A program made the translations under genes and the position numbers. A stretch of 64,000 nt of DNA from Chondrocystis sp. NIES-4102. GTDB lineage: Bacteria > Cyanobacteriota > Cyanobacteriia > Cyanobacteriales > Xenococcaceae. The stretch lies in assembly GCA_002368355.1 (NCBI GenBank), contig AP018281.1, positions 2,542,001 through 2,606,000 on the forward strand, given 5' to 3'. How positions within the stretch are numbered: position 1 is the stretch's first letter; the number at the start of each line of letters is the position of its first letter. The notes beneath the pieces are model-generated. The model had not been told where the DNA came from. It did no database searches and was given only the letters and a program-made list of their open reading frames with translations. This document shows, piece after piece, positions 25,615 through 28,276 of this stretch.

Positions 25615-25740
25615 ATGATTGGCAGTTATGCAGCTTCCTGGCTACCCATTGCTATGGTCCCGCTTGTCGGTATTGTAGGCGCAGCAATATCTATGGCTCT
25701 TTTGCACGTTTATATTGAAGGCGAATCTGAAACAAAATAG
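25615..25740 (+). CDS. psaI: Photosystem I subunit VIII
   Basis: A 41-residue protein begins MIGSYAASWLPIAMVPLVG, continues with a single membrane helix AAISMALLHVYIE and ends in a charged tail. This matches PsaI, which contacts PsaL and stabilises the oligomerisation domain of photosystem I. The start is supported by AGGAAAGG just upstream. It is transcribed away from psaL and has its own terminator 51 bases after the stop. Confidence 0.93.
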   Translation: MIGSYAASWLPIAMVPLVGIVGAAISMALLHVYIEGESETK

Positions 25741-25790
25741 TAAGGTATAAGTAGTACTTTAAGTAACTTGTTTTTACTTAATAAATCTTG

Positions 25791-25820
25791 ATACTCTGCC
25801 TAACTTGGTAGGGTATTTCT
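25791..25820 (+). terminator. Rho-independent terminator after psaI
   Basis: ATACTCTGCC (25791-25800) pairs over ten positions, two of them G-T, with GGTAGGGTAT (25807-25816) around loop TAACTT. TTTCTATAT follows. Its position after the short psaI gene fits a terminator. Confidence 0.65.
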
Positions 25821-26072
25821 ATATAATTATAAAGAGCGATCGCCTTTTGATGAGATATTTTGTTTGCTTGATTAGATATTAAAATTATTAGATTATAAAT
25901 AGGTGAGGGTTCTTACTCTTCGTTTACTATCTCCCTTGCCGATTGTTTTTATATAATTACTAAAAATAATAAAACAGTTTAATTTTGCCTTAATTTAAGA
26001 GTTTCTGACGATGTAATTGTATCGTTCCTCACAATATTATGGGAGAAATAACTAATATAATATTTTGAGAAA
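25821..26072. promoter_or_regulatory. Leader of the ParA-nuclease module with two inverted repeats
   Basis: The gap holds an 18-bp palindrome ACGATGTAATTGTATCGT (26008-26025) with five perfect outer pairs, two G-T positions and central AATT. A second inverted repeat, AATATTAT (26033-26040) and ATAATATT (26057-26064), ends 9 bases before the start codon. Both are close to the ParA-like start, and partition operons are commonly autoregulated at such sites, so one could be an operator or a parS-like centromere. Neither matches the chromosomal parS consensus. Confidence 0.4.
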
Positions 26073-27470
26073 ATGGTATCTATAGTTGCAGAAGAAACAG
26101 AATTTTCCTCTTCCAAACTAGCAAAAGAATTAAAAGTAGCATTAGAAAAGTTACCTTTAGATGCACAAGAATCAATAGTAGATAATAATTTCATTGCTAG
26201 AATATTTTTAGATGCTTTAGGTTTTTCTTTACCAGAGCGTATTCCAGAATTTAAAACGGGTGACGGGGCTGTTGATTATGCCCTGCGTAAGAATATAAAA
26301 GATAATAATTTTCTACATGATAAAACTAATCCTCAAGTATTAGTTGAAATAAAAGGTAGAGATATTAATCTTAATAGTGGAACACCTGCTTATAAAGCGA
26401 TAGTTAAACAGATAAAACGTTATTTATTAGCACCTTATTGTCAATCCGCACAATGGGGCATAATTACTAATTCTAAACACATTCAATTATTTAGAAAACA
26501 TGGCAAAGTTGTTTATCCTGCAACACCTATTTTAGAAATCACCCCTGATAATATTGGAGATATTACTGTAAAGATTAGAAGTAAAATTGAACAAACATCA
26601 AGAGCTTTAACGGTAGCTATCTATAATAATAAAGGTGGGGTTGGTAAAACCACAACAGTTATCAATTTAGCAGCTACTCTAACGTTACATAAGCAAAAAG
26701 TTTTAGTTATTGATTTTGACCCTAATCAAAGGGATTTGACCGATTACTTAAATGTTCATGTAGGCAAATATAAGTTATATGATTGTTTAAAAGATAAAAA
26801 AGGTTTAATAAATATCAATAAAGTTATTTGTCCTTATATTAAAACTTTTAAAAATGGAATTTCCTTGAGTTTTGATGTAATTCCTGTAGATGAACAATTT
26901 ACTAAAATAGATGAGGATAAGTTACGTAGTGAATTAAGTTTTTATAGCTTACGTAAAAAACTAGAAACCCTTAAATCTGATTACGATTATATTTTAATTG
27001 ATGCCCCTCCTAACTGGAGATATTTTAGTATTAGTGCTGTCTATGCAGCAGATGTAGTTTTAATACCAACGCAACATAATAATATTGGTTCATTAAAAAA
27101 TGCAGCTACAGTTATTGGACAATATATTCCAGAAATACAAAAAGCTCGACAAGCAAAAACTCAAGGTTTAGAATTAGGAGCGATCGCTTTACCTATTTTT
27201 TTTAATGGAGAAAAGATTACTGAAGCAACTAAAGTTAATGCAAAAAATGCAATTAACGAAATTATTAATAAAGCATGCAAACTATATAATTTTGATTTAA
27301 TATCCTATTTTTATCCTAATTTTCTCCATAGCAAAAACACTTCTATCTTTGAATTACCCAATCTAGCTTTTATAGCATCTTCTTGTTTTGAAAACATTCC
27401 TGCTGTTTATAAAAGTAAAGTGGCTTATGATTATTATTCTCAATTAGCTAAGGAGTATTTTTTACAATGA
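26073..27470 (+). CDS. ParA-family ATPase fused to an HsdR_N-like (PD-(D/E)XK) domain
   Basis: Residues about 30-155 resemble the N-terminal nuclease domain of type I restriction subunits: LDALGF, GAVDYALR (D68), VLVEIKGRD (E92, K94), VKQIKRYL (Q113), and WGIITNSKHIQLFR. The D-ExK-Q residues of the nuclease core are present. Residues about 178-460 form a ParA/MinD ATPase with deviant Walker A KGGVGKTT (187-194), Walker A' VLVIDFDP and Walker B YILIDAPP (D310). The fusion would link a nucleoid-walking ATPase to DNA recognition or cleavage. The next gene, a ParB-like protein, overlaps by 4 bases (ATGA), so the two are co-translated. No plasmid replication gene is near. It could be a partition module, a phage-defence module or a remnant of a mobile element. 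Confidence 0.85.
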   Translation: MVSIVAEETEFSSSKLAKELKVALEKLPLDAQESIVDNNFIARIFLDALGFSLPERIPEFKTGDGAVDYALRKNIKDNNFLHDKTNPQVLVEIKGRDINLNSGTPAYKAIVKQIKRYLLAPYCQSAQWGIITNSKHIQLFRKHGKVVYPATPILEITPDNIGDITVKIRSKIEQTSRALTVAIYNNKGGVGKTTTVINLAATLTLHKQKVLVIDFDPNQRDLTDYLNVHVGKYKLYDCLKDKKGLININKVICPYIKTFKNGISLSFDVIPVDEQFTKIDEDKLRSELSFYSLRKKLETLKSDYDYILIDAPPNWRYFSISAVYAADVVLIPTQHNNIGSLKNAATVIGQYIPEIQKARQAKTQGLELGAIALPIFFNGEKITEATKVNAKNAINEIINKACKLYNFDLISYFYPNFLHSKNTSIFELPNLAFIASSCFENIPAVYKSKVAYDYYSQLAKEYFLQ

Positions 27471-28144
27471 GTAATTTAAGTGATGTTGGCAATTTGATGT
27501 ATCTTGATATAGCGATAATTGAACCAGGAGAACTTACTAAAGTTTCTACTTATTTAATTAATGCTACTGCTAAAGAATTGAATAATACCGACGCTAGAAA
27601 TTGGATACCTTTAATAGTAAAAGAAATTAGTGAAGATCGCTATCAAGTTATTGGTAATTCTTTTATTTATGCAGTGGCAGAAGCAGCAGGGTTAGAAAAA
27701 GTTTGGTGTATCATTGCCGATGATAGTGAAAAAACTGCCAAGATAACTAAAATTTTAGCAGGGGAAGAAATACCAAAAATAAATTTATCAACTGCATCAA
27801 GGGATGAAATTAAAGCAGCATTAGAATATTTAGTAGAACAACCTACCACAGTTTTGAAAGGAATAAAAATACCTGTTGTAACTAATCGTATTGAAGCAGC
27901 ACCTCGTCATAATTGGCAAAATTTAACCCCTATTATTAAATTAAATTGTGGTATTACCGCAGGTAAAAAAATTAAAGCATTAGAACAAGTTTTTTATCTT
28001 ACTCCTAAAGAAGAAGTAAAATTGGATAATAATAATGATTTGAGTAAACTAACTGTTACAGATTTGAAAAAAATCGCTAAAGAACGTAAATTATCTGGGT
28101 ATAGTAAATTAAATAAGAGTCAGTTAATAGAGTTATTAGGTTAG
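27467..28144 (+). CDS. ParB-like N-terminal domain protein with C-terminal Rho-N/SAP-like motif
   Basis: The 225-residue product starts inside the last codons of the ParA-fusion gene. Its first ~95 residues follow the ParB N-terminal pattern (NWIPLIVKEIS, then YQVIGNSFIYAVAEAAGLEKVWCIIAD), but the usual GERR CTP-binding box is replaced by GNSF, so CTP switching may be absent. There is no typical ParB HTH in the middle. The last 35 residues (LSKLTVTDLKKIAKERKL; GYSKLNKSQLIELL) form a Rho N-terminal/SAP-like helix-extended-helix motif, which usually binds nucleic acid. It probably is the DNA- or RNA-binding partner of the ParA-nuclease. Confidence 0.7.
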   Translation: MSNLSDVGNLMYLDIAIIEPGELTKVSTYLINATAKELNNTDARNWIPLIVKEISEDRYQVIGNSFIYAVAEAAGLEKVWCIIADDSEKTAKITKILAGEEIPKINLSTASRDEIKAALEYLVEQPTTVLKGIKIPVVTNRIEAAPRHNWQNLTPIIKLNCGITAGKKIKALEQVFYLTPKEEVKLDNNNDLSKLTVTDLKKIAKERKLSGYSKLNKSQLIELLG

Positions 28145-28265
28145 TTTTTAGCTTTTAGCTTTTCACTTTCTCCTGACTTGTTACTCTCATTGTCCCCTTG
28201 TGGGATTACTCCTTATTTAATACTCCTGACTTTTACCTACTACCCACTACCTAACTCATAACCAT
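28145..28265. repeat. Intergenic repeat array
   Basis: The gap after the ParB-like gene contains TTTTAGCTTTTAGCTTTT, TCTCCTGACTTG, ATTGTCCCCTTGTGGGAT (the reverse complement of 11498-11515) and CCTACTACCCACTACCTAAC. No coding frame is supported. Confidence 0.7.
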
Positions 28266-28276
28266 CTATTAATATA

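Follow-up and report, generated by a model that had tools for sequence, protein, structure and literature searches.

A putatively mobile cyanobacterial gene pair combining a ParA-type ATPase, fused to a predicted PD-(D/E)XK nuclease domain, with a ParB-like partner

Among the described systems close to the gene pair reported here (genes A and B) are the ParABS modules, i.e., Soj/Spo0J and plasmid ParA-ParB, with which it shares a complete ParA ATPase with a deviant Walker A motif and a partner of the ParB-N fold encoded immediately downstream. The pair differs from them in that its ParA is fused to a nuclease, the partner lacks the GERR box, the HTH and the ParA-binding motif and has HhH-like and Rho_N/SAP modules, and neither a centromere repeat nor an adjoining rep gene was found at A/B. 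The ParA-ParT-parS system of Streptomyces SCP2, which works without CTP, also combines a ParA with a ParB-like partner (PMC12260392); however, a CTPase-fold domain is entirely lacking from ParT, whereas B keeps the fold and loses the box, and in A/B it is the ParA that carries a nuclease. The counterpart of the nuclease part is Type I HsdR, exemplified by EcoR124I, whose HsdR has the RecB-type motif Gln179-Ile-His-Arg-Tyr183 (QIHRY) (PMC4454674). In both, a PD-(D/E)XK domain that belongs to shared Pfam families and contains a QxxxY motif lies N-terminal to an ATPase, but the ATPase of A is a ParA and not an SF2 translocase, and there is no HsdM/HsdS partner.

In their survey of ParB-CTPase folds, Kaljevic et al. 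(2025) described divergent folds on mobile elements, fused to lineage-specific domains (PMC12704722), and B resembles these fusions in all these respects. The survey names only the DUF3850 fusion as consistently adjoining parA; a SAP/Rho_N fusion and a ParA-nuclease are both absent from its main text. By analogy only, the pair may also be compared with MksBEFG/Wadjet, in which a chromosome-organising ATPase is coupled to a nuclease reported to remove plasmids (PMC10123090); there, the ATPase is of the SMC type, the nuclease is another one and four genes are involved. Our searches of the open-access literature brought up neither a report on a ParA-nuclease fusion nor any characterised system with the composition of A/B, for which the first-pass annotation had likewise known no precedent. 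The parts of A/B are already known; their combination, its conservation and its mobility are, to our knowledge, new. We regard it as quite possible, on a tentative basis, that A/B is a mobile nuclease system switched by its ParA part, foreign DNA being its most likely target.

The window, i.e., the whole 64,000-nucleotide stretch analyzed, is part of a cyanobacterial chromosome (Chondrocystis sp. NIES-4102, contig C1, 2542001-2606000). Gene A (26073..27470, + strand) encodes a 465-aa fusion of a PD-(D/E)XK nuclease domain and a ParA ATPase, and gene B (27467..28144, + strand) encodes its 225-aa ParB-like partner; they share a 4-nt ATGA overlap (27467-27470). The coordinates, the reading frames and the overlap were correct as first noted. 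The initial description of A as an HsdR_N-like nuclease fused to a complete ParA is borne out by Pfam, the AF2 model and the conservation among homologues, and that of B as a ParB-like fold without GERR, followed by a Rho-N/SAP tail, agrees with the Pfam matches and the structure superposition.

The HsdR_N/RecB-type domain of A (26130..26597, + strand, residues ~20-175, with E33, D68, E92-x-K94 and Q113-xxx-Y117) was recognized by Pfam matches in homologues, conservation and the order of secondary-structure elements. In the window protein itself, HSDR_N_2 matches residues 72-142 below the Pfam cut-off (21 bits vs 25); a Pfam scan of 26 A homologues detected HSDR_N_2 in 17, HSDR_N in two and MmeI_N in one of them. 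D68, E92, K94 and Q113, proposed from the start as nuclease residues, proved real, being invariant in 26/26 A homologues, and amongst 62 distinct homologues E92 is universal, D68 and K94 are each present in 61 and E33 in 60. In the main clade, Q113 is present in 52/53 A proteins and Tyr117 in 43, which gives the QxxxY motif (QIKRY in the window protein), and A has the D...E-x-K plus QxxxY arrangement of the HsdR nucleases. This conservation is meaningful because the main-clade and divergent-clade A proteins share only 21-32% identity. The divergent (plasmid) clade matches HSDR_N and MmeI_N, and a comparison of its profile with the main-clade one gave a match of 98% probability.

The first-pass annotation had left the PD-(D/E)XK fold to be checked by structure prediction, and the AF2 model of A (mean pLDDT 87) displays the expected alpha-beta-beta-beta-alpha-beta core in the right order: helix 33-48, strands 56-61, 66-71 and 89-93, helix 105-118 and strand 128-132. 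The second strand carries the catalytic residue D68 and the third ends with E92, just ahead of K94; Q113 is part of the helix that comes next. A fold search with the whole A model returned ParA relatives only and no direct structural match for the nuclease domain, because the ParA part occupied the structure match lists; comparison of the nuclease-domain profile with PDB sequences gave chance-level matches only. A degenerate nuclease fold was considered and rejected, as the catalytic residues are conserved in the homologues. Judged from sequence and model, A appears to carry an intact PD-(D/E)XK nuclease domain of the HsdR/RecB type, i.e., what looks like a live DNA-cutting domain. In one A copy, L097 (G199), D68 and K94 are replaced by G and T, respectively, and the ParA motifs are intact; it appears inactivated and looks like a natural nuclease-dead variant.

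The ParA/Soj ATPase domain (26598..27470, + strand, residues 176-465) contains KGGVGKT at 187-193, D216 and the Walker B residue D310. It matches AAA_31/ParA over residues 180-343 (E=1.8e-32, Pfam), and the model of A resembles H. pylori Soj (Z 26.2) and McdA (Z 23.7). The signature lysine K187 is present in 61 and the P-loop K192 and the Walker B D310 in all of the 62 homologues, and the deviant Walker A of the ParABS ATPases is found in A together with a Soj-like fold, with KGGVGKT, D216 and D310 conserved. The signature residues of ParA are kept, and what is known of this family leads us to expect that A works as an ATP-dependent switch that binds DNA.

The complete ParA and the A-B order with an overlap, typical of parAB, bring in the main rival of the foreign-DNA reading, namely partition with a retained nuclease, in which A would be the ParA and B a CTP-independent centromere-binding adaptor; CTP-independent ParABS does exist (PMC12260392). 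We consider this explanation unlikely, and just as unlikely its further parts, that the nuclease fold would serve DNA binding, dimerisation or the resolving of linked plasmids and that the chromosomal copies would be captured plasmid modules. The conservation of the nuclease catalytic triad across both clades speaks against it, as does B, from whose sequence the ParA-binding motif LG-R/K-GL is absent.

The N-terminal ParB-N/Srx fold of B (27467..27772, + strand, residues 1-102) scores 19.6 bits against ParB_N (Pfam cut-off 26.3) and so does not reach the Pfam cut-offs of the survey of Kaljevic et al. (PMC12704722). In structure, residues 9-102 match the CTPase domains of ParB proteins (superposition on M. 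xanthus ParB with Z 12.4, rmsd 2.2 over 90 residues). The position of the GERR box reads VIGNSFIYAV, with N64 conserved instead of the box, and N45, P48, W80 and C81 are invariant in the B homologues. The Trp-Cys pair, located within a ParB-N strand (C81 at window ~27707-27709), is invariant in 34/34 B proteins. The helical middle domain (27773..28006, + strand, residues 103-180) includes the HhH-like motif L.C-G-I-T-x-G-K-K; in the model, helices 154-159 and 167-173 flank CGITAG, the turn cysteine of which is invariant. This domain weakly matches the photosystem II chain 4yuu_U2 (Z 4.0), i.e., PsbU, a chain with HhH, and the model weakly supports a helix-hairpin-helix-like middle segment. The Rho_N/SAP nucleic-acid-binding tail (28034..28141, + strand, residues ~190-225) was identified by PF07498 (30.1 bits, cut-off 24.9), with SAP just below the cut-off, and by structure comparison, in which the C-terminus matched Rho-N, the RNA-binding domain of Rho, at Z 5.2 and Ku at Z 4.9. 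Pfam yielded no HTH match in B, which has the HhH-like and Rho_N/SAP modules there instead.

The C-terminal DNA-binding modules of B seem interchangeable. The middle domain is duplicated in L094/L104, L098, L091, L093, L111, L095, L097 and L115; in some homologues a second copy of it takes the place of the tail, in others the copy and the tail occur together, and the divergent clade is devoid of either. The B proteins of L094/L104, L098 and L242 are 315-318 aa long, the middle domain being doubled in them, with or without the Rho_N tail.

HhH and SAP modules are common in repair proteins and QxxxY is a RecB-type motif, both of which would fit a control of DNA repair or recombination, with a RecB-like nuclease gated by the ParA switch and processing the host's own DNA; in addition, one locus has been retained across a genus (L099/L100 and relatives). 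We find such a role improbable, and equally so the part assigned to B in it, i.e., targeting the nuclease to breaks, forks or, through Rho_N, untranslated transcripts. The pair is patchy, horizontally moved and lost in close relatives, and A evolves fast when its neighbours do not (see below), none of which agrees well with a function of this kind.

In the window, A and B form a cassette of ~2.45 kb located just after the psaI terminator. Gene psaI (25615..25740, + strand, 41 aa, below the ORF-listing size) lies between psaL and the cassette, forming the left flank of the insertion site; its terminator-like end (25788..25818, + strand) is the last block that can be aligned with the empty sites. 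The inserted cassette extends approximately over 25819..28276, from the psaI terminator to the EI24/CysZ gene, both ends being approximate. In seven relatives (G011, G012, G010, G009, G002, G008, and G016) the site is empty and psaL-psaI is directly followed by the EI24 gene (401-498 bp). Of these relatives, G009 carries the pair at another place in its genome; six congeners are without any copy of it. This absence from congeners speaks against partition and makes us lean to a conflict role. A plasmid remnant in the window was rejected, given the psaL-psaI and EI24 flanks and the empty site in relatives, and so was the idea that A/B is the chromosomal ParABS of the organism, since congeners are without the pair. 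The sole ParB_N above the cut-off in this genome lies on contig C3. In G007 (L235), the psaL/EI24 gap holds a gene of an MFS-type transporter, seemingly split by a frameshift; because this congener has a different insertion there, the spot is one that tolerates insertions.

The A/B family is patchily distributed in cyanobacteria, with matches in 60/386 genomes at E<=0.001, ~35 of them strong, and two close relatives carrying A+B are represented by database contigs of Pleurocapsa and Xenococcus. Of the 41 loci included in the comparison, mostly with 5-10 kb of flanking DNA, 40 have both genes, the exception being L068 with a truncated A; at practically all intact loci the two genes are next to each other, and besides A/B no gene family is common to more than four of the loci. 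In the tree, copies from plasmids and from chromosomes are interspersed with strong support. To judge from these comparisons, A+B is apparently a mobile stand-alone cassette that moves horizontally across cyanobacteria. A highly divergent pair is located on the chromosome in L242 (G207) and in G348, the genomes of which have only 1.7-1.8 Mb.

Plasmid-borne copies are a point in favour of partition. One such case, which is also a point against the foreign-DNA reading, is a 12.6 kb Pseudanabaena plasmid having CyRepA1 and A/B as the sole candidate partition module among its annotated genes; on the Pseudanabaena plasmids with A/B, genes of the CyRepA1 type are some kilobases off. The pair is also carried by the Leptolyngbya plasmid pLBA and, in three different versions, by three plasmids of Nostoc sp. 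UHCC 0870. Of the latter, two possess ParM in addition, and a ParAB-like pair is likewise found on two; such coexistence with other partition systems argues against a partition function and is one of the reasons for which we favour a conflict role. Furthermore, at least 14 other loci lie on chromosome-sized contigs (>3 Mb) between unrelated housekeeping genes and without plasmid genes at the flanks, again contrary to partition. The outcome named initially as refuting the first-pass reading, i.e., homologues that always sit beside a plasmid replication gene and have no nuclease residues conserved, is not what we observed: no rep gene adjoins A/B as a rule, the nuclease residues are conserved, and the flanking genes include those of ATP synthase, photosystem, glycosyltransferase and Uma2 proteins. 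The surrounding DNA may speak against partition, too: no inverted repeats conserved around A/B were found in 700 bp upstream and 300 bp downstream at 39 loci (a search that a single unshared site would escape), and in the window the repeats around the pair are at chance level only, with no centromere-like repeat or iteron block common to the loci.

The overlapping genes that are always together, on plasmids and at scattered chromosomal sites, and the occurrence of decayed copies might also be expected of a selfish addiction or toxin-antitoxin-like cassette, in which A would be toxic once B is lost, stabilising the carrier replicon or the cassette. We judge this very improbable, because B is more like a DNA-binding adaptor than an antitoxin and the elaborate ATPase in A is not expected of a toxin.

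The 145 nearest neighbours of A/B comprise mixed housekeeping genes with some defence-like matches, and a simple look, made without a background set, revealed no clear defence enrichment; that these neighbourhoods are not obviously defence islands may count against the foreign-DNA reading. No methylase or specificity gene is a conserved neighbour of the pair. Another point against this reading is that the PADLOC defence models gave no full-length match, those of A, to candidate models, being short and partial around the Walker A region and B having none. In IMG/VR we detected one full-length relative of A (L119, on a 58 kb contig) and no match of B, and no phage record covers 80% of A; a viral origin was rejected on these grounds. 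A tRNA-linked integration was rejected too, as 23/26 locus stretches have no tRNA and on the other three none adjoins the pair.

The two genes evolve differently. At a locus shared by two congeners, dN/dS is 0.60 for A (at 87.4% identity) and 0.11 for B, with 0.00-0.33 for the ten flanking genes; these are NG86 estimates from few pairs, uncorrected for recombination. At one locus in another genus, A is 64% identical and B 93%, and the closest relative of one of these A proteins is a plasmid allele. Across the family, where two B proteins share 80-90% identity, their A partners share 62-80%. The A alleles look mosaic: in L085, the middle part of A matches L083/L086, whereas the C-terminus matches L082. 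From these alignments, A apparently evolves much faster than B and is probably swapped independently of it, which hints at diversifying selection on A or at an exchange of its alleles; recombination may account for part of the rapid change of A.

That A diversifies and B and the neighbours do not is a further reason for favouring the conflict role, as is the fact that both active centres are kept in a pair that is mobile and dispensable. The decayed copies count in its favour as well. Mechanistically, A-ATP dimers would coat DNA non-specifically via the ParA part and hold the paired nuclease domains restrained. By means of its HhH and SAP/Rho_N modules, B would settle on one kind of DNA, presumably that which is foreign, replicating or damaged, and its subsequent contact with A would trigger ATP hydrolysis or a rearrangement and lead to local cleavage. 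The most likely role would be conflict with incoming plasmids or phages, in which the pair would serve chromosomes and also plasmids, the latter in their competition with others. It is possible that A/B represents an undescribed class of genome-conflict system, in which a ParA-type gradient/switch, set off by a CTP-independent ParB-like DNA sensor, governs a PD-(D/E)XK nuclease destroying foreign DNA; partition machinery would then have been turned into a weapon. On the other side, the nuclease residues could have been conserved for a housekeeping cleavage under tight control. If the foreign-DNA reading is true, the ParA switch, known for positioning cargo on the nucleoid, would also be used to cut DNA, and a compact two-gene candidate system for defence or inter-plasmid competition would be added in cyanobacteria; A/B may then matter for the engineering of strains that resist transformation.

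The flanks of one further locus differ between congeners (L109 12969-16045 vs L118; G118 vs G170). The ATP synthase subunit genes next to the cassette have dS of ~1 or more, whereas the genes on either side of this divergent stretch differ little (dS 0.1-0.3), i.e., part of the atp operon is locally replaced between the two congeners.
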